Shown here piece after piece: positions 5,661-60,873 of a stretch of 64,000 bases of DNA. Every line of letters begins with the position of its first letter. Positions within the stretch are counted from its first letter, which is position 1. Under the pieces are notes generated by a model. The model had not been told where the DNA came from and did no database searches. It was given only the letters and a program-made list of their open reading frames with translations. The stretch spans positions 1-64,000 of the forward strand of contig JANLFN010000010.1 of NCBI GenBank assembly GCA_024655885.1. The letters run 5' to 3'. The position numbers were made by a program, and so were the translations under genes. The DNA comes from Eubacteriales bacterium (GTDB lineage: Bacteria > Bacillota > Clostridia > Acetivibrionales > JANLFN01).

Positions 5661-5740
5661 ATTCATGCTGAAATGTTGGCTGCGCAAATGCTGAGATTTT
5701 GCTACACAAAGGCTGAGATGTTCGCTTCACGAATGCCGAG
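5661..5740 (-). repeat. Tandem 22-23 bp hairpin repeat (module C), 3.5 copies
   Basis: On the minus strand the units read CTCGGC/CTCAGC/CTCAGC/TTCAGC, each followed by a small inverted repeat. Copies are 5718-5740 (arms ATTCGT and GCGAAC around GAA), 5696-5717 (TTTG/CAAA), 5673-5695 (imperfect) and a truncated copy to 5661. It is the same unit as at 51551-51693. It ends beside the cwlJ ribosome-binding site. Confidence 0.75.
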
Positions 5741-5788
5741 TCTCTTGCCCCGGCAGTAGAAAGGTTGAAGTAGTTCTTATAAGGCGTT

Positions 5789-5900
5789 CAAGGTTAAGGT
5801 TGTAGCTGTTCTTACCGGCGGTTCAAGGTTAAGAACGCACAAAGCTTTTTTCAACCTCAGCCTTGCCCTTCTCCGAAGCTCTTCTGCAACCTTAACCTTG
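5789..5900. repeat. 14-bp perfect inverted repeat (AAGGTTAAGG / CCTTAACCTT)
   Basis: CAAGGTTAAGGTTG (5789-5802) and CAACCTTAACCTTG (5887-5900) are exact reverse complements. The same AAGGTTAAGG/CCTTAACCTT pair occurs at 22983-22993 and 23115-23125. It appears to be an inner arm of a larger mirrored repeat element. Confidence 0.7.
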
Positions 5901-5956
5901 CCCTTCTCCAGAGCCCATCTCCAACCTTAGCCTTGCCATTCCCCAAAGCCCATCTC
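5852..5956. repeat. Three tandem 35-bp repeats (module B)
   Basis: Units 5852-5886, 5887-5921 and 5922-5956 are each exactly 35 bp. They share CAACCT, then CCTTGCC, TTC, CC and an AAGC/GAGC-type block near the end. A related single copy on the opposite strand occurs at about 51461-51496 (GGTTGCAG...GGAGAAGGGC). No coding function is visible. Confidence 0.75.
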
Positions 5957-5960
5957 CAGT

Positions 5961-5989
5961 CTCAGCCTCTCAGCCCTCAGCTTCTCAGC
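5961..5989 (-). repeat. CTCAGC tract (module A)
   Basis: Four CTCAGC hexamers are separated by CT, C and TT. The tract mirrors GCTGAG motifs at the other side of this non-coding block (5712). It is the same family as the tracts at 22948, 23131, 49931, 51419 and 58876. Confidence 0.75.
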
Positions 5990-20718: not shown

Positions 20719-22404
20719 GTGAAAGGCACGATAAAAAAGAGCAATACAAGGGGTGGAGGGGATAATAAACCGAAAAAAAGCAGCGCTCCCGGGAGGAAAA
20801 ATGAACTGCCAGATTTAATCACAGACAGAGCAAACCGCTGTTACAATTATATCGTCATTTTTTGCCTGGCTGTGATTCCGCTGCTGGTCCACACAAAAAT
20901 CCTGAGGTTTATTGCCCCGAAGTTCAGTGACGGGGATGCCGCCACCGGTTTACACTACGACACCTTTTCGTATTACAAGTGGATAGGATTGATCCTGGCA
21001 TCCGTTTTTGCCGTAATCCTGCTTATTATAAAAATGACTGCCGGAAAATACAGGCTGAAGCCCGGGTATATCAACCTCCCCCTGCTGCTGCTGGTTTTAC
21101 TGCTGCTTATCTCCCTTTTTACAGCCCAGTATAAGGCTGTGGCCCTTTACGGGCTGTACTGCCAGCTGGAGGGGGTTTTAACCTACCTGTGCTATTTCGC
21201 CTTATTATTTTGCCTGTCCAATGGGAATTTTGATTTTAACATAGGAAAATATATCAACATCTGCCTGACGGCCGTAGTGCTGGCCAACACCGTAGTTTCC
21301 GTCAGCTTCTTTTTCGGGTGCAATTTTGGCGAAAACCCCATAGTCCTTGCGCTCATGAAGCCGTTTTCGGTCAAGGAAAACCTCACCATGCAGCTGTCCA
21401 CGCTTTTGGCCAATCCCAACTACAGCAGCGGCTTTAGCGCCGCCGCCTGCAGCTATTTTTACGCCATGTCGCTTGCAGAGGATAGGAAAAGAGAAAGAAT
21501 CCTTGCGGCGCTGATGTCTTTTATTTCGTTTATGGCCGTATTGGCTTCCGTATCCAGCAGCGGATTTTTCACCCTCTTATTGGTACTGCCCGCAGTCAGC
21601 ATCCTGACCCTGGTGAAGGTCCGGAAACTGTCTGCAGTAAAGGTTATGGCAGCGAATGCGGTCCTGTATGTCCTGATGCTTTGCCTTTTTATCTTTTCCA
21701 GCCATAAGGTTTTCAATGAAACCATGGGGACTGTTCCCCAAATGGTAAAAGCTGTATTGGAACATGAAGAATTGTTACCAACCCATGGGGTTTACAACGA
21801 ACCCGTAGAGGCCGGTTCACAGACTGCGAAAGCGGTGTCGGGAGAGGGAGAGCTGTCCGGAAAGCCGCCGGCCTCTACAGGGCAGCTGCCTGAATTTGAT
21901 TTGCCCCAGCCCGGCGTATCGGCGGGGTCGGGGAGGCTGTACATCTGGAAGCATACGGCACGGTTGATTTTGCAGAAGCCTTTTCTGGGATATGGCATGG
22001 ACACCATTGCCTATTATTTTCCCCAGTATGACAGGGATAAAATCGCCAACTTAGACTCTTACAGCCAGATGCTTTCAAAGCCCCACAGCCTGTACCTGGC
22101 CGTGGCTTTCGGCGCGGGAATACCGGCGCTGGCTGTTTTGCTCCTGCTGTTTATTCTGCATTTCATCAGCAGCTTAAGAGGGATGCTTGCGGAAAAGGAG
22201 GCGGGCCTCTTCAGGCTGCGCCTTGCATTGCTGGCCTTTTACATTGCTTTTTTGATCCAGTGGCTGTTTAATGACTCCATCCTGGGCACCTCAGCCATTT
22301 TTTGGGTCTTGACAGGCATCGCCGCATCCCTTAATTATAATTATGAGAAGGAAATGCGTTCAAAAATGAACTATGGAGAGGATAAAAGCTATGCGGGGAA
22401 ATGA
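20719..22404 (+). CDS. O-antigen ligase/polymerase-like membrane protein
   Basis: This polytopic membrane protein of 561 residues has about ten to twelve hydrophobic helices. A large extracytoplasmic loop (about residues 345-400, Pro/Glu-rich) precedes the Wzy_C/WaaL-type segment FLGYGMDTIAYYFPQYD...KPHSLYLAVAFGAGIPAL. WaaL/Wzy-like enzymes polymerise or transfer lipid-linked glycans on the outer face. GTG 20719 follows AAAAAGGTGAT. The gene overlaps loaP by 14 bp. A second, larger homologue is at 26414, so the two may act on different polymers. Confidence 0.8.
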   Translation: MKGTIKKSNTRGGGDNKPKKSSAPGRKNELPDLITDRANRCYNYIVIFCLAVIPLLVHTKILRFIAPKFSDGDAATGLHYDTFSYYKWIGLILASVFAVILLIIKMTAGKYRLKPGYINLPLLLLVLLLLISLFTAQYKAVALYGLYCQLEGVLTYLCYFALLFCLSNGNFDFNIGKYINICLTAVVLANTVVSVSFFFGCNFGENPIVLALMKPFSVKENLTMQLSTLLANPNYSSGFSAAACSYFYAMSLAEDRKRERILAALMSFISFMAVLASVSSSGFFTLLLVLPAVSILTLVKVRKLSAVKVMAANAVLYVLMLCLFIFSSHKVFNETMGTVPQMVKAVLEHEELLPTHGVYNEPVEAGSQTAKAVSGEGELSGKPPASTGQLPEFDLPQPGVSAGSGRLYIWKHTARLILQKPFLGYGMDTIAYYFPQYDRDKIANLDSYSQMLSKPHSLYLAVAFGAGIPALAVLLLLFILHFISSLRGMLAEKEAGLFRLRLALLAFYIAFLIQWLFNDSILGTSAIFWVLTGIAASLNYNYEKEMRSKMNYGEDKSYAGK

Positions 22405-22903
22405 CTGGTATGCGCTTTTTGTTATTACCGGTGAGGAGGATAATGTAAAGGAGCGGTTGAAATACCGGTTCGAAGACAGATTCAGGATACTGGTGCCCAA
22501 GCGCAGGCTGAGGGAGAGAAAAAACGGGATGTGGCACGATATTATAAGGGTGCTGTTTCCCGGGTATGTCCTCATAAACGGGACTATGGACAATGAAGAA
22601 TATTACCGCTTGAAGGGCGTCCCCGGACTTTTAAAGCTGCTTCGCGCCGGGTACGACCCCTTAAGGGTGGAATATCATGAGATGGAAATCATCAATCAAT
22701 TGATTTGCAATGATGAAACCATAGGCTTTTCCGACGTGCTGGTGGAAAACGGCAGGGTGGTTGTGGTGGACGGCCCCCTTGTTTCCATGGAAGGGCTGAT
22801 TGCCGGCATCGACCGGCGGAAAGGCCGGGCCAAGGTAATCCTCAACTTCATGGGCGAGCCCAGGACGGTGGAGCTGGGGATATCGGTGCTGCAGCCGGCC
22901 TGA
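22391..22903 (+). CDS. loaP: NusG paralogue, transcription antiterminator LoaP
   Basis: The 170-residue protein has a NusG N-terminal domain (about 1-105): DWYALFVITGEEDNVKERL, LVPKRRLRERKNG and FPGYVLINGTMD. A C-terminal KOW domain (about 118-170) follows: ENGRVVVVDGPLVSMEGLIAGIDRRKGRAKV in parts, then LGISVLQPA. LoaP proteins bind an RNA hairpin in the leader of long polysaccharide or polyketide operons and make RNA polymerase read through terminators. ATG 22391 follows GGAGAGG and gives the standard MRGNDWYAL start. It is encoded directly upstream of a 24-kb exopolysaccharide operon, its most likely target. Confidence 0.85.
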   Translation: MRGNDWYALFVITGEEDNVKERLKYRFEDRFRILVPKRRLRERKNGMWHDIIRVLFPGYVLINGTMDNEEYYRLKGVPGLLKLLRAGYDPLRVEYHEMEIINQLICNDETIGFSDVLVENGRVVVVDGPLVSMEGLIAGIDRRKGRAKVILNFMGEPRTVELGISVLQPA

Positions 22904-22947: not shown

Positions 22948-23186
22948 GCTGAGAAGCTGAGGGCTGAGGGGCTTCTGCGATACAAGGTTAAGGCTGCTTT
23001 TGCCTCAAATAGGGAACCTCTGACAGTTTAGCCCTCACCTCTAACTCCTCTCCCGCATCAGGAGAGGAGAATCCTCTCCTTTACATACTCTGGGGTGTCT
23101 TTCCTCATTGCTTTCCTTAACCTTGACTTTCTCAGCCCTCAGCTTCTCAGCCCTCAGCCTTCTCAGCCCTCTCAGCCCCTCAGCTA
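22948..23186. repeat. Long mirrored repeat element built from GCTGAG/CTCAGC and AAGGTTAAGG/CCTTAACC
   Basis: The left end (22948-22976) holds GCTGAG motifs and the inner left arm is CAAGGTTAAGG (22983-22993). The inner right arm is CCTTAACCTTG (23115-23125), and the right end (23131-23183) is seven CTCAGC motifs separated by short pyrimidine spacers. The centre has GGAGAGGAG/CTCCTCTCC hairpins. It is an imperfect inverted repeat of about 240 bp between loaP and the convergent peptidase gene, and it touches the peptidase stop codon. Confidence 0.75.
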
Positions 23187-24062
23187 AGAATTTTCCTCCT
23201 TGGTGAAAATTCCCGCATCCACCCATTCCTGCTTCAGCACCGACCACCAGTCCAGCGCCAGCCCCTGCAGGACATATTCATAGGGCAGCCAGCCGTAACC
23301 TTGTTCTCCCCATTCTACTCCCCAGGAGTTCCGGATCAGGAGGGCGCCATGGACGGTCTTGCCGTCGGCCGGATTTGAGATTTCCTTGCCATCGTCATAG
23401 CCCACGGCGGCCACCGCATGCCCGCCCAGTATTTTTTCGCCTCTTGAGGGAAAAGGGATACAGCCGTCGGCGTCTGCGTGCCTTACCGATTGATAGACGG
23501 TAAAGCCGAAGACGGAGGGTATGCCTGCGGCCAGGTATTTTTTCACGCTTTTGAGCACTTCTTCCGGGGAGACGTTGGAGGGGTCATGCCGGAAATAGCT
23601 TATGCACTGATAGTTCTGGGCAAAGGCGTAGCAAAAGGCATCCGGCTCGTCATCAAAGCGTTCGGTCTCATAGGGCCAGTATTCTTCGGGGGGCATGCCG
23701 AACAACACCAGGGCTCCCAGGGCAGATTTAAGGAAAGCTCCGGTGTCGCCCTTGAAATGGAGAAGGTTTCTTGTGACCTTGTACAAAAATAGCCGGGACG
23801 CGTCCAGGTGCTTTCCAAAGGATTTGTTCTCAAAATATTCTACTACGCCCGCAACCGCATGGGCGGTGCAGGAGCCGATGTCTCCCTGGTTCTCCACAGG
23901 AGAGCACCACTTTCTTAAATCCACGTTTGAGGGCAGCGCCTCCTCCCCGTTTATCCGGAGCCTGGAGAGAAGGGGCAGGATCTTCTCATGCCCTTCCGTG
24001 TAATCCCGCATGTCGGGATAGTCGGGGAGCCATCCGAATTTGTATTGGAATTTGCCGGACAT
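23184..24062 (-). CDS. C1 family (papain-like) cysteine peptidase
   Basis: The 292-residue protein has the papain catalytic set: Q59 and C65 in ENQGDIGSCTAHAV, H215 in GGHAVAAVGYDD and N245 in RNSWGVEWGEQGYGWLPY. No signal peptide or propeptide is visible, so the cytoplasm or spore is the likely location. It begins with a short FGWLPDYPDMRDYT segment common in bacterial stand-alone C1 peptidases. GTGAGGTG precedes ATG 24062. It is on the opposite strand to both neighbours, so it is its own unit. Its stop codon TAG is immediately followed by CTGAGG of a repeat array. Confidence 0.85.
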   Translation of the reverse strand: MSGKFQYKFGWLPDYPDMRDYTEGHEKILPLLSRLRINGEEALPSNVDLRKWCSPVENQGDIGSCTAHAVAGVVEYFENKSFGKHLDASRLFLYKVTRNLLHFKGDTGAFLKSALGALVLFGMPPEEYWPYETERFDDEPDAFCYAFAQNYQCISYFRHDPSNVSPEEVLKSVKKYLAAGIPSVFGFTVYQSVRHADADGCIPFPSRGEKILGGHAVAAVGYDDGKEISNPADGKTVHGALLIRNSWGVEWGEQGYGWLPYEYVLQGLALDWWSVLKQEWVDAGIFTKEENS

Positions 24063-48992: not shown

Positions 48993-49970
48993 ATGGCAAA
49001 GTATTTGGTGACCGGCGGTGCCGGTTTTATCGGCTCCACCATTGTGGAGCGTCTGGTGGAGCGCGGGTACGAGGTCCGGGTGGTGGACAACCTGTCCACA
49101 GGCAAACTTGAAAATATACAGGGGCTGATGGGCAAAATAGAGTTCCTCTGCGGCGACCTGGCGGACTTTCGCGTGGCGGAAAGGGCGGTGGACGGCGTGG
49201 AGTACATCCTGCACCAGGCGGCGCTTCCTTCGGTGCCGCTGTCGGTGAGCGACCCCGTGGCCGTTAACCGGAGCATCGTGACCACCACCGTCAACCTTTT
49301 TAAAGCGGCGGCCGACGGCAAAACCGTAAAAAGAATAGTACAGGCCGTATCTGCGGCGGCTTACGGGGATTCCCCCCAGCTTCCCAAGAGGGAGGATATG
49401 GACCCCGATCCTTTGTCCCCCTACGCGGCTGCAAAGCTGGCCCAGGAATACTACGGGAGGGCCTTCTGCAATGTCTATGGCCTGGAAATATTATCCCTCC
49501 GCTACTTTAACGTGTTTGGCCCCAAGCAGGATCCCAAATCCTTTTACGCCGGGGTGATACCTATTTTTATTTCCCGGATGCTGCAAAACAAGAGGCCCAC
49601 CATTTTTGGCGACGGACTTGCCAGCCGGGATTTTATCTATATAGATAACGTGGTGGAGGCAAACCTTGCGGCGTGTACCTGCCAATGGCCGGGAAGGGCC
49701 GAGACCGTCAATATCGGGAGCGGCAGGTCCATAAGCTTGAACGGGCTGGTTGACAAGCTGAATGGGATTTTAGGCACAAAATTGTCTCCTGTCTACGCAG
49801 AGGCGAAAGCCGGCGATGTGAGGCATTCGGTGGCGGATATAGCCAAAGCCCGGGAACTGCTGGGCTATGAGGTTAAAGTTGATTTTGACGAAGGGCTGGC
49901 CAGGCTGGTTGAGTGGTTCAAAGGGAGAGAAGCTGAGAAGGCTGAGGGGCTGAGGAAGCTGAGAGGCTGA
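48993..49970 (+). CDS. NAD-dependent nucleotide-sugar epimerase (GalE/WbpP-like)
   Basis: The 325-residue extended SDR has TGGAGFIGSTIVERLVERG, LHQAALPSVPLSVSDP, YAAAKLAQEYY (catalytic Tyr/Lys) and RDFIYIDNVVEANL, close to UDP-GlcNAc/UDP-Glc C4 epimerases. In the serine motif, the usual SSS(A/V)YG is replaced by AVSAAAYG, leaving only one Ser, which may weaken activity or mark a subfamily. The last 15 or so residues (REAEKAEGLRKLRG) are encoded by GCTGAG repeat sequence, and the stop TGA lies inside a GCTGAG copy. GGGAG precedes ATG. Confidence 0.8.
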   Translation: MAKYLVTGGAGFIGSTIVERLVERGYEVRVVDNLSTGKLENIQGLMGKIEFLCGDLADFRVAERAVDGVEYILHQAALPSVPLSVSDPVAVNRSIVTTTVNLFKAAADGKTVKRIVQAVSAAAYGDSPQLPKREDMDPDPLSPYAAAKLAQEYYGRAFCNVYGLEILSLRYFNVFGPKQDPKSFYAGVIPIFISRMLQNKRPTIFGDGLASRDFIYIDNVVEANLAACTCQWPGRAETVNIGSGRSISLNGLVDKLNGILGTKLSPVYAEAKAGDVRHSVADIAKARELLGYEVKVDFDEGLARLVEWFKGREAEKAEGLRKLRG

Positions 49971-49975
49971 GGCAA
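49931..49975 (+). repeat. GCTGAG tract running through the 3' end of an epimerase gene
   Basis: Five GCTGAG/CTGAG copies with A/G-rich spacers span the last 13 codons and the stop of the 48993 gene. The direction matches the walR and peptidase cases, with GCTGAG on the coding strand. Confidence 0.75.
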
Positions 49976-50724: not shown

Positions 50725-51420
50725 GTGAATAAAAAAATTCTTATTGTCGACGATGAGAAGAATATTGTCGATATCCTCAAATTCAACCTCAAAAAAGAAG
50801 GCTTCGAGACAATGGAAGCCTATGACGGGGAACAAGCCGTTGACATGGCATTGAGCCAGAAACCGGATTTGATACTGCTGGATATCATGCTGCCGAAAAT
50901 GGACGGTTTTACTGTTTGCCGCAAAATCAGGCAGGAGTCTTCCACTCCCATTTTAATGCTGACGGCGAAAGAGGAGGAAGTGGATAAGGTCCTGGGACTG
51001 GAACTGGGGGCGGATGATTACATTACCAAGCCCTTCAGCCCAAGGGAGCTGATGGCCAGGGTAAAGGCCAACCTGAGGAGGACCGTGCCCGAGGAATCCC
51101 TGAAAAGTGCGGGCAACTGCATAAGATGCGGAAGTGTGGTAATCGATATGGACCGCTATGAGGTAAGGCGGGACGGCACGGTGATTGAACTGACGCTGAG
51201 GGAGTTTGAGCTGGTAAAATTCCTTGCACTCCAGCCGGCCCAGATTTTTTCGAGGGAAAGCCTCCTGGAAAAAGTATGGGGCTATGAGTATTACGGGGAC
51301 GTGCGCACGGTGGATGTCACCGTGAGGCGGATCAGGGAGAAGCTGGAGAGGGATCCGGCAAATCCTGAATATATTCTCACCAAAAGAGGCGTGGGGTATT
51401 ATTTCAATAAATTGTGCTGA
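50725..51420 (+). CDS. walR: Response regulator WalR (OmpR family)
   Basis: The 231-residue protein has a receiver domain (about 1-118) with phospho-acceptor D53 in LLLDIMLPKMDG, plus D8/D9 and K102-type residues (IVDDEKN; DDYITKPFSPREL). A winged-helix DNA-binding domain (about 130-230) follows: LTLREFELVKFLA, KVWGYEYYGDVRTVDVTVRRIREK and YILTKRGVGYYF. It controls wall-hydrolase and envelope genes. GTG 50725 follows GGGAGTG. Its identity as WalR rather than PhoP rests on the yycH-yycI-walJ neighbours. The stop TGA lies inside a GCTGAG motif starting a repeat array. Confidence 0.88.
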   Translation: MNKKILIVDDEKNIVDILKFNLKKEGFETMEAYDGEQAVDMALSQKPDLILLDIMLPKMDGFTVCRKIRQESSTPILMLTAKEEEVDKVLGLELGADDYITKPFSPRELMARVKANLRRTVPEESLKSAGNCIRCGSVVIDMDRYEVRRDGTVIELTLREFELVKFLALQPAQIFSRESLLEKVWGYEYYGDVRTVDVTVRRIREKLERDPANPEYILTKRGVGYYFNKLC

Positions 51421-51500
51421 GAGGCTGAGAAAGCTGAGAAGCTGAGAGCTGAGGGGCTGAGGTTGCAGAAAGGCTTTGGAGAAGGGCAAGGTTAAGGCAA
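51419..51500 (+). repeat. GCTGAG array plus one 35-bp-type unit between walR and walK
   Basis: The tract runs GCTGAG x6 with short purine spacers (51417-51463) and starts at the walR stop. GGTTGCAG and GGAGAAGGGCAAGGTTAAGG (51461-51496) follow, the reverse complement of the 35-bp unit at 5852-5956. Confidence 0.75.
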
Positions 51501-51550: not shown

Positions 51551-51693
51551 CTCAGCATCCGTGAAACGGATATCTCAGCCTTGCGAAGCAGGAGACTCAG
51601 CATTCGCAGAGCGAATATCTCAGCATTTACGCAGCAAAGTTTCAGCGTTTGGGAAGCAAACAACTCAGCGCTCAGCATTCATGAAATGAATAT
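51551..51693 (+). repeat. Six tandem 22-23 bp repeats, each with its own hairpin (module C)
   Basis: Units start at 51551, 51574, 51596, 51619, 51641 and 51671. Each has CTCAGC (or TTCAGC) followed by an inverted repeat that differs between copies: ATCCGT/ACGGAT, CTTGC/GCAGG, ATTCGC/GCGAAT, imperfect, GTTTG/CAAAC and ATTCAT/ATGAAT. An extra 7-bp CTCAGCG lies at 51664. The paired arms change together. It lies in the walR-walK mRNA. Confidence 0.8.
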
Positions 51694-58875: not shown

Positions 58876-58935
58876 GGCTGAGAAAGCTGAGGGGCTGAGG
58901 CGCTTTCAGCGCAGGCTGAGGGCGCGGCGCCGCTT
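58876..58935 (-). repeat. GCTGAG array with GCGC hairpin units between walJ and rlmH
   Basis: GCTGAG copies occur at 58877, 58886, 58894 and 58915. On the minus strand 58898-58920 reads CTCAGC, then CTGCGC-TGAAA-GCGC, then CTC, a variant of the 23-bp hairpin unit. A GGCGCGGCGCCGC palindromic stretch follows (58921-58933). Confidence 0.65.
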
Positions 58936-59447: not shown

Positions 59448-59504
59448 CCTCAAACGTTTTTTCTCTTTGCTCTGATACCACGTGAAAAAGGGGACGCTTC
59501 TCAA

Positions 59505-59842
59505 CATTCTTTTATTTTTTTCCTTGAAATACAAGAAAAAGCTCAAATAAACCCGCTCGAAAGCGAATCTATTCAAGCTTTTCTTCTTTTTCATGGATCC
59601 AAATCCAAATCCACTTCCTTCATTTGTGGACTGCATATCCCGTTAAAAGGGAATGCCAACTGTTCAGCAAGGAGGGCGAGCTCTCTGACCCTGAATAACA
59701 TGCGTTAGGGACCACTAGCTAAGAATCCGTTTTCACTTTAGGTTGAGTAGCGTTTTCAAAACCTAGAAAAGTACTGGGTTTTGAAAAATTTTAACTATCA
59801 TAAATATTGCAACTGGTAATGATTCGCCGTTTAGTACAACCT
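59505..59842. other. Non-coding left part of the RAYT element
   Basis: About 340 bp lie between the left inverted repeat and the transposase stop. I see no gene. It contains AAAACCTAGAAAAGTACTGGGTTTTG (59758-59784 approx.), an imperfect hairpin that could end the minus-strand transcript or be part of the transposon end. Confidence 0.45.
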
Positions 59843-60772
59843 CTATATTCTGCAGTCGGCCAATTCATCAAAGATGCCTTTATATATGGAATTCTCTCTG
59901 CTAATCAGCTCATATCCCTTGTCGCATAATCTCGAACACCCTGAGATTGTTATATTGTATATACTGCTGCTTATGTCTTTATAACTGAGGCCGCACAATA
60001 CCCTTAATGCATATGCCGTGAATGCTCTGAATTCATATACTTTTCTTCTATATCCTGCAGCACGGCTATCTTTTTCCGCCGTCATCAGCTTTCCTGAAAT
60101 ATAGCTTATTACTTTTGAAGGCTGTATATCCCTTAGTATTATTTTCTTACCGCTGATATATTCATATTCTGCAGCTTTTTCCAGCCTTTTTTTCATTTCC
60201 TTGAGGCTTCCTATATCTCTTTGGTGGCTTACAAACGCAAAATACTTTTCCGCAAATTTCTTTGAATTATCCTTATTAAAAAGTCCCATGATAAAGCTTG
60301 TATCCACGAGGTTTTGAAAGTCCTTTCTCTGTCCTAAATATATTCCATAGGAAGAATACTTGTAATTTTCCTCTTTTCCTGCATAACCTTCAATATCATG
60401 GGCATTATTGTGGATGTATGCCGAAACGGCCAGATTGTATTCATCAGTGTCCAATATCCTGCTCTCAAACCTGTCCTGGAATACATGCCCATGCCTGTTA
60501 TACTTTTTATTATAATACCTGACATAGGCTGTATTGATGCTGTGCATGAATTTCGATACGTCAAAGCCGTTTGGGTCAAGGTGAAGATGCAAATGGCTGT
60601 CCATAAGACAGTAAGCATATATGTGGCACTGATATTTTTCTTTGTATCTTTTTAATAGCCCAATGTAATAATCCTTGTCGTCATCGTCTCTAAAAAGCAT
60701 AAATTCGGATACACTGCGGCACATTATGTGAAAAATCGCTTCAGGATGCTTTTCACGAGCTTTTCTCGGCAT
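59843..60772 (-). CDS. REP-associated tyrosine transposase (TnpA_REP, Y1/HUH family)
   Basis: The 309-residue protein has an IS200/Y1-like N-terminal domain (about 10-130): ARQ-like PRKAREKHPEAIFHIMCRS start, YLM-like YCLMDSHLHLHL with the HUH metal motif (H60, H62) and YVRYYNKKYNRHGHVFQDRF with the catalytic Tyr candidates Y83/Y86. A C-terminal region of about 170 residues with an HTH-like AYALRVLCGLSYKDISSSIYNITISGCSRL (DnaA-like) follows. It is transcribed against the neighbouring genes. Such transposases mobilise or maintain dispersed palindromic repeats. Confidence 0.88.
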   Translation of the reverse strand: MPRKAREKHPEAIFHIMCRSVSEFMLFRDDDDKDYYIGLLKRYKEKYQCHIYAYCLMDSHLHLHLDPNGFDVSKFMHSINTAYVRYYNKKYNRHGHVFQDRFESRILDTDEYNLAVSAYIHNNAHDIEGYAGKEENYKYSSYGIYLGQRKDFQNLVDTSFIMGLFNKDNSKKFAEKYFAFVSHQRDIGSLKEMKKRLEKAAEYEYISGKKIILRDIQPSKVISYISGKLMTAEKDSRAAGYRRKVYEFRAFTAYALRVLCGLSYKDISSSIYNITISGCSRLCDKGYELISRENSIYKGIFDELADCRI

Positions 60773-60873
60773 ATAGGTCCACCACCAGACATCTTTTTCT
60801 ATATTTTAACACGGAACATATGTTTTGTAAAGAATTTTTTGACATTTTTGTTAATTTATTGAGAAGCGTCCCC

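Follow-up and report, generated by a model that had tools for sequence, protein, structure and literature searches.

The mirrored block between a loaP-like gene and a peptidase gene (22948-23184) is, we hold with moderate confidence, the convergent-gene form of a lineage-specific, REP-like family of composite intergenic repeats made of three modules (A, B, and C), a family that would grow by tandem duplication, spread as blocks, and be tolerated or used as a transcribed intercistronic structure. The block was met in a 64-kb stretch of DNA (the window) belonging to a genome of 3.44 Mb in 65 contigs. In this genome, the family is dispersed and copied in blocks, its modules follow a fixed order and a polarity with respect to the neighbouring genes, its arrays lie close to stop codons, and the pairing of its B stems is maintained. 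The family is neither a REP of the GTAG/CGTC type nor an intrinsic terminator, and it does not look like a classical MITE.

The mirrored block and related elements in the window

The block is flanked on the left by a gene with a NusG domain (22373-22903, +; PF02357), which is consistent with its identity as loaP, and on the right by a papain-family peptidase gene (23184-24062, -; PF00112). The left outer arm (22948-22968, +), three copies of GCTGAG(RR) with a period of 7-8 nt, begins 44 nt past the stop of the loaP-like gene and on its sense strand. Its 21 nt are 100% complementary to 23131-23151, which is part of the right outer arm (23131-23184, -), an array of seven CTCAGC(YY) that reads as GCTGAG on the peptidase sense strand, starting from the TAG stop with which its final base is shared. 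Within the outer arms are the inner arms, CAAGGTTAAGG (22983-22993, +; a 35-nt-type module) and CCTTAACCTTG (23115-23125, -), which are 100% complementary over 11 nt, and both pairs of arms enclose a central palindrome, CCTCTCCTGATGCGGGAGAGG (23047-23067, -). The sequence-only reading, in which outer and inner arms were in inverted order between loaP and the peptidase gene, is thus borne out. In the predicted RNA fold of the block (-99.9 kcal/mol, z -5.5 with 200 shuffles), both arm pairs and the central hairpin are formed. A promoter search of the block found none, and an Rfam scan of the window gave no match at the gathering score. A link to loaP function was considered from the position of the block and set aside; arrays adjoin many unrelated genes. 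At the core of the block (23028-23071) lies a palindromic repeat of a second kind, CCCTCACC...CTCTCC-N-GGAGAGG; a variant of it is again intergenic near 77.8 kb of contig C7 (about 77836, L058), and the repeat is also present downstream of the family mate's orthologous peptidase gene (L100, 2574-2594).

The hexamer CTCAGC occurs 64 times in the window versus 23 expected, and AAGGTTAAGG, with at most one mismatch, 13 times versus 6 expected, values reached in both cases by none of 100 shuffles. The block at 5690-5989 had been said to have the same order of modules, and it does read GCTGAG / AAGGTTAAGG / CCTTAACC / CTCAGC. Its left arm (5666-5742, -) is of the 22-nt type, with CTCAGC and mini-hairpin modules, rather than of the 8-nt type; it is followed by 35-nt AAGGYTRAGG modules in both orientations with a spacing of 35 (5761-5968) and by a right arm of four CTCAGC (5961-5989, -). 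Elsewhere, five GCTGAG (49932-49971, +) form the C-terminus and TGA stop of an epimerase gene (48993-49970). In the element at 51.4 kb, an array of six GCTGAG (51416-51461, +), the first of which forms the TGA stop of a response-regulator gene, is followed by a GGGCAAGGTTAAGG module (51484-51497, +) and, before a histidine-kinase gene, by an array of CTCAGC and mini-hairpins with the stems ATCCGT, CTTGC, ATTCGC, and ATTCAT (51551-51691, +). A GCTGAG array with a GCGC-type hairpin (58877-58920, +) occupies the gap between a gene for a metallo-beta-lactamase fold and a SPOUT methyltransferase gene.

The sequence-only reading had proposed a search for empty sites in related genomes. An orthologous site free of arms exists in a relative, G010, where the convergent peptidase/loaP pair is kept without the arms and with a gap of about 81 nt versus 280 nt here. 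In the family mate, G001, the central palindrome (CCTCTCCTGATGYGGGAGAGG) is found at the same place and in the same orientation downstream of the orthologous peptidase, again without arms. Since the palindrome is arm-free in G001 and the arms are absent from G010, the mirrored block is a mosaic of an older central palindrome and lineage-specific arms. In G010, an intrinsic terminator, GGGCTGAG-TTACA-CTCAGCCC with a T tract, overlaps the peptidase stop (L098, about 2357-2387); this stop, TGA, lies inside the hexamer, and the site is the one at which the present genome has its CTCAGC array. The terminator is the only match to GCTGAG..CTCAGC..TTTT in the G010 genome. It may mark the starting point of the right array's growth, which, for a single locus, is a lead only.

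Modules, order, and polarity across the genome

Module A is a run of GCTGAG (in reverse, CTCAGC) with linkers of 1-3 nt and a period of 7-9 nt; module B, of 21-23 nt, is CTCAGC and, after it, a small hairpin whose loop is in most cases a 3-nt R-N-A; and module C is a 35-nt AAGGYTRAGG unit, the core pattern of which has 23 matches versus 5 in the control (at most one mismatch). The pattern CTCAGC-N1-4-CTCAGC occurs 95 times in the genome versus 0 for the reversed control pattern, and CTCAGC-N14-19-CTCAGC has 50 matches versus 0 in controls, a count that takes in module-A arrays too. Tandem pairs with N1-3 number 94 here, 1 in the sole family mate, and at most 13 in 59 other genomes examined, the 13 being in a class-level relative in which the listed places are single pairs on many contigs. 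The exact 21-mer was found in three stretches of the species collection, none of them from a near relative. The high count here compared with relatives, together with this absence of the 21-mer from near relatives, indicates that the family has expanded in this lineage.

Arrays differ from copy to copy, and their unit length varies from 7 to 9 nt. Among elements, there are 182 pairwise matches of at least 40 bp, and the best whole-element pair, the 51.4-kb element of the window and that at 83.0 kb on C7, aligns over 223 bp at 76% with the same orientation and hairpin order, which shows that multi-module blocks have been copied between loci. Two paralogous small genes (L061, 2390-2500; L078, 2457-2570) have the same GCTGAG array at their ends followed by different cores, as if modules had been swapped at a fixed site.

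Clusters, taken as groups of three or more hexamers with a tandem pair among them, number 32. Both orientations are present in 19, and in 17 of these, GCTGAG strictly comes first and CTCAGC last, whereas permuting the labels 10,000 times yields 1.1 on average and 7 at most. The exceptions are C7 83002, with one extra GCTGAG at its end, and L062. In these clusters, 10 of 12 C-module hits are oriented like the hexamer closest to them, and 9 of 12 are inside the arms. In the genome-wide comparison that the sequence-only reading had proposed, the modules thus recur in a fixed order; the finding that was to count against it, modules occurring independently and in random order, was made in its first half, since modules do occur separately, but not in its second. 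Its idea of one modular element forming a long stem holds for the modularity, the long stem, and the order, which is fixed elsewhere too, but a mosaic has to replace the single element: 13 of the 32 clusters have one orientation alone, and the central palindrome is older.

The placement of arrays relative to genes was determined with gene calls from a simple, purpose-written codon-usage script. By these calls, 49 of 50 A-type arrays (the other, in L071, was beyond the 900-nt gap limit) are in gaps between genes, of which there are 35 (26 co-directional, 5 convergent, and 4 divergent). Where the gap is co-directional, the array that first follows the stop codon is GCTGAG in the sense direction in 24 of 26 cases (binomial p = 1e-5), at a distance of -21 to 170 nt from the stop and, in 19 of the 24, of at most 24 nt; in the convergent gaps, all 7 arrays are GCTGAG when read away from the gene end closest to them. 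The stop codon is inside the array in four gaps (49970, 51420, 73086, and L078 2557). The hairpin (B) arrays tend toward the start side of the next gene, with CTCAGC on its sense strand, a tendency to which no p-value was assigned. At the least, annotators should be aware that, in this lineage, repeats able to supply stop codons remodel both the ends of genes and the gaps of operons.

Elements are also wedged into an operon. Here, hemC is separated by 137 nt from cobA/hemD, which is separated by 84 nt from hemB (hemC and hemB were assigned from Pfam, cobA/hemD from position and sequence); both gaps are filled by an element, and another, of about 170 nt, follows hemB. By comparison, the corresponding gaps measure -77 to 52 nt in six relatives, the relatives used in this analysis being 44-72% identical in protein. 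This widening of the hem gaps indicates that the elements are insertions or the result of local growth, and their position inside operons makes it unlikely that they are strong terminators. Other neighbours likewise separated by elements in this genome are mnmE/mnmG-like genes, ketol-acid reductoisomerase (ilvC)/leuA-like genes, and response regulator/histidine kinase genes.

Hairpins and the hexamer shared with Elusimicrobia

The pairing of B stems was followed in 13 modules that had been selected by a spacing of 17 nt between YTCAGC tags and not by pairing. Standard pairs make up 93.6% of cells versus 82.0% in shuffles, 5 of the 6 stem pairs have changes on both sides, and partner columns that were slid as a control are only 31-51% paired. 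The covariation score is 0.513 versus 0.270 and was reached by 0 of 500 shuffles, a count that is not a probability, the copies being related repeats of one genome. Hairpins (taken as perfect when they have a stem of at least 6 and a loop of 3) are within 12 nt of 21 of 194 non-coding hexamers versus a background of 2.2% (p = 4e-9; positions not independent), and 13 of the 16 perfect hairpins by hexamers have an R-N-A loop on the CTCAGC strand versus 14 of the 69 that lie away from hexamers in this DNA. G-N-A triloops are exceptionally stable in DNA, and the R-N-A loops hint at a role for these hairpins at the level of DNA. As to folding of whole gaps, z is below -2 in 16 of 33 (30 shuffles each; 2 of the 35 gaps, over the length limit, were left out). 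A stable stem is therefore common but not general, which is a counterpoint to a general role for the stem, and function is not claimed for all copies. If the repeats are kept for their structure, this one genome would contain many cases in which the pairing of a stem is held while its sequence changes, and would offer a natural test of REP-like repeats working as folded nucleic acid.

The same tag is found in two rumen Elusimicrobia MAGs, with 34 (G060) and 21 (G062) tandem hexamer pairs versus 0 in controls in each, and in a third genome, a Parvularcula MAG, with 6. The Elusimicrobia genomes were found via an exact array match, so the shared hexamer was selected for but the shared hairpins were not; 37 stretches were examined, 32 of them from these two genomes. 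At their loci, CTCAGC arrays are accompanied by mini-hairpins with different stem sequences (GGGAAC, AAATGC, and GGACAC). A hairpin is within 12 nt of 26 of 83 non-coding hexamers in G060 (background 8.7%, p 5e-9) and of 7 of 22 in G062 (background 8.9%, p 0.002), positions again not being independent, and the loop on the CTCAGC strand is R-N-A in 14 of 18 and 2 of 5 hairpins, respectively. Other intergenic tandem runs in these genomes have the form (CCAATCTT)n, (GGGTGAAT)n, and (CCTATAACC)n (L057, about 935-985; L111, about 500-540; L135; L143), which suggests that short-unit arrays are general in the intergenic DNA of Elusimicrobia. In passages from an Endomicrobia genome paper, CRISPR repeats are the only ones mentioned (PMC11257099).

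A universal sense-GCTGAG polarity was considered and had to be rejected. Among the 43 Elusimicrobia arrays, 8 are at edges, 7 in predicted genes, and 5 in divergent or convergent gaps; of the 23 that are co-directional, 19 have CTCAGC on the sense strand and 4 GCTGAG, and these 19 count against a common mechanism. The sense-GCTGAG arrays are nearer the stop in 4 of 4 cases, while those with sense CTCAGC are nearer the start in 11 and nearer the stop in 8. Inside predicted genes, 7 of 7 arrays have CTCAGC on the sense strand (L057, 1194-2678; L147, L151, L152, and L153), which fits the exclusion from coding sequence of the GCTGAG strand with its TGA; such in-gene arrays would add amino acids without stopping translation.

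One very speculative explanation for what is shared is that CTCAGC is the recognition tag of an undescribed, transposase-independent activity that generates single-stranded DNA mini-hairpins, with perfect stems and R-N-A triloops, and spreads them between genes, both here and in rumen Elusimicrobia, either by cross-phylum transfer or because the same tag arose twice. This idea, which we consider very improbable, is based on the hexamer arrays with adjoining hairpins in three genomes, the R-N-A loops, and the lack of a Y1 transposase in Elusimicrobia, a search of both genomes for PF01797 (Y1_Tnp) having given 0 matches. If the tag shared by two phyla did have a common cause, a hairpin-propagating activity would await identification. 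The present genome carries a spore-protein gene.

Competing explanations and comparison with known repeats

The sequence-only reading had also raised the possibility of a MITE-like element with a matching transposase end. Movement of a MITE or a REP-type element by one of the genome's own Y1 (RAYT/IS200-like) transposases would account for the placement by stop codons, as with REPs, and for a design of tag plus palindrome like theirs (PMC3733652), and the genome does have six PF01797 matches, one of them in the window. The transposase search for shared terminal inverted repeats of the MITE type, which covered the Y1_Tnp family, nevertheless gave no matching end: the five loci inspected outside the window lack adjoining non-coding CTCAGC or GCTGAG, and the copy in the window is flanked by inverted GGGGACGCTTCTCAA repeats of its own, unrelated to the family. 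The ends of the family's elements are tandem arrays. Y1_Tnp genes are also similarly numerous in array-free relatives, the two Elusimicrobia with the same arrays have none, and the stems here, unlike those of REPs, vary in sequence. The linkage to a Y1/RAYT transposase was rejected on these grounds, and we regard such a mode of movement as very unlikely. The Y1_Tnp gene of the window (59843-60772, -) lies between perfect inverted copies of GGGGACGCTTCTCAA at 59490-59504 and 60859-60873, and the whole (59490-60873) forms a small unit of the IS200/RAYT-like kind that has no relation to the CTCAGC family. A known mobile carrier was likewise rejected: a search of viral contigs for the exact array found none, the mirrored block has no similarity to plasmids, and the 51.4-kb element has none to phages.

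Another possibility is that the long stem ends both the loaP and peptidase transcripts, as a terminator or bidirectional insulator, and that the family is a terminator system. The canonical terminator at the orthologous peptidase stop of G010 is built on the same hexamer, and the array could have grown out of a stem of that type; but the GCTGAG..CTCAGC..TTTT pattern has 0 matches in the present genome, the family lacks the GC stem followed by a T tract of an intrinsic terminator, and the only terminator-like site in the mirrored block is a weak one of 5 bp (1 found, 0.5 expected). Moreover, the array at 49970 is followed, after about 50 nt, by a stem-loop of its own kind with a T tract, and elements are found within hemC-cobA/hemD-hemB, an operon in relatives, where termination would be harmful. 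As a general explanation, a terminator family was rejected on the operon placement, the missing pattern matches, and the weak site, and it seems unlikely to us. Similarly unlikely is that the arrays are plain mutational debris, that is, low-complexity DNA between genes that is prone to slippage and whose structure is under no selection: the variable unit length of 7-9 nt, the differences between copies, and a z of -2 or above in 17 of the 33 folded gaps are what such debris would give, but strict polarity, fixed module order, and double compensatory changes in stems are not expected from slippage alone, and the reversed-pattern control is 0.

In the REP-like composite family that we favour, arrays would lengthen by tandem duplication through slippage, and single-stranded DNA hairpins may be the sites at which copying or template switching spreads hairpin blocks, with no dedicated transposase. 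Insertions would persist chiefly at sites that are not harmed by an added stop codon or by a lengthened stretch between cistrons. At gene ends, the GCTGAG orientation would be favoured because it provides TGA in every frame and places the 5' arm of the stem beside the stop codon, although the polarity could result from an insertion bias and not from selection. Once transcribed, the element would fold as an intercistronic or 3'-end stem, as is thought for REP sequences; the mirrored block, with its 21-bp and 11-bp stem between convergent genes, would most likely serve as a structure at the 3' end of the mRNA rather than as the terminator.

Among the matches listed in a literature search of open-licence papers, nothing was recognisable as the CTCAGC/GCTGAG family, and we know of no enzyme that explains the CTCAGC repeats here or in the two Elusimicrobia. 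Heterocystous cyanobacteria have STRR repeats, simple heptamer arrays that are not known to include inverted arms or hairpin units; these resemble the present ones as degenerate short tandem repeats located between genes in some genomes. We know of no shared tag or polarity rule for the elements of sponge mitochondria. These organellar elements, compositionally divergent and hairpin-forming, invade intergenic DNA and are scattered in distribution (PMC2800124), and in their divergent intergenic hairpins and scattered occurrence they are like those here.

There is also a likeness to the TAACTGA heptamer repeats of Beggiatoaceae, Cyanobacteria, and Bacteroidetes, which are intergenic and mostly just upstream of start codons (PMC4679880). 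Both are short direct repeats concentrated between genes, many per genome, absent from close relatives, distributed over scattered phyla, and provided with stop triplets (PMC4679880); the present arrays count as short tandem repeat arrays of the STRR/TAACTGA kind. However, the TAACTGA unit is fixed at 7 nt, with no hairpin module in the description available from that source (PMC4679880), whereas the arrays here have variable linkers, lie just after stop codons, and come with inverted partner arrays and hairpins.

REPs are found near the 3' ends (<20 bp) of the upstream gene, mostly in unidirectional or convergent gaps, can provide the stop codon, and are thought to act as RNA (PMC3733652). 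The present family differs from REPs of the GTAG/CGTC type in that its tag is CTCAGC or TTCAGC in the 13 aligned modules (which were chosen by that tag), GTAG/CGTC being absent from them; in that a conserved palindrome is replaced by stems that change with compensation (5 of 6 pairs on both sides); in the lack of a linked RAYT at the Y1_Tnp loci inspected; and in its tandem arrays of 7-9-nt and 35-nt modules. What it has in common with them is the short palindrome with a tag, placed near the 3' ends of genes in unidirectional and convergent gaps.
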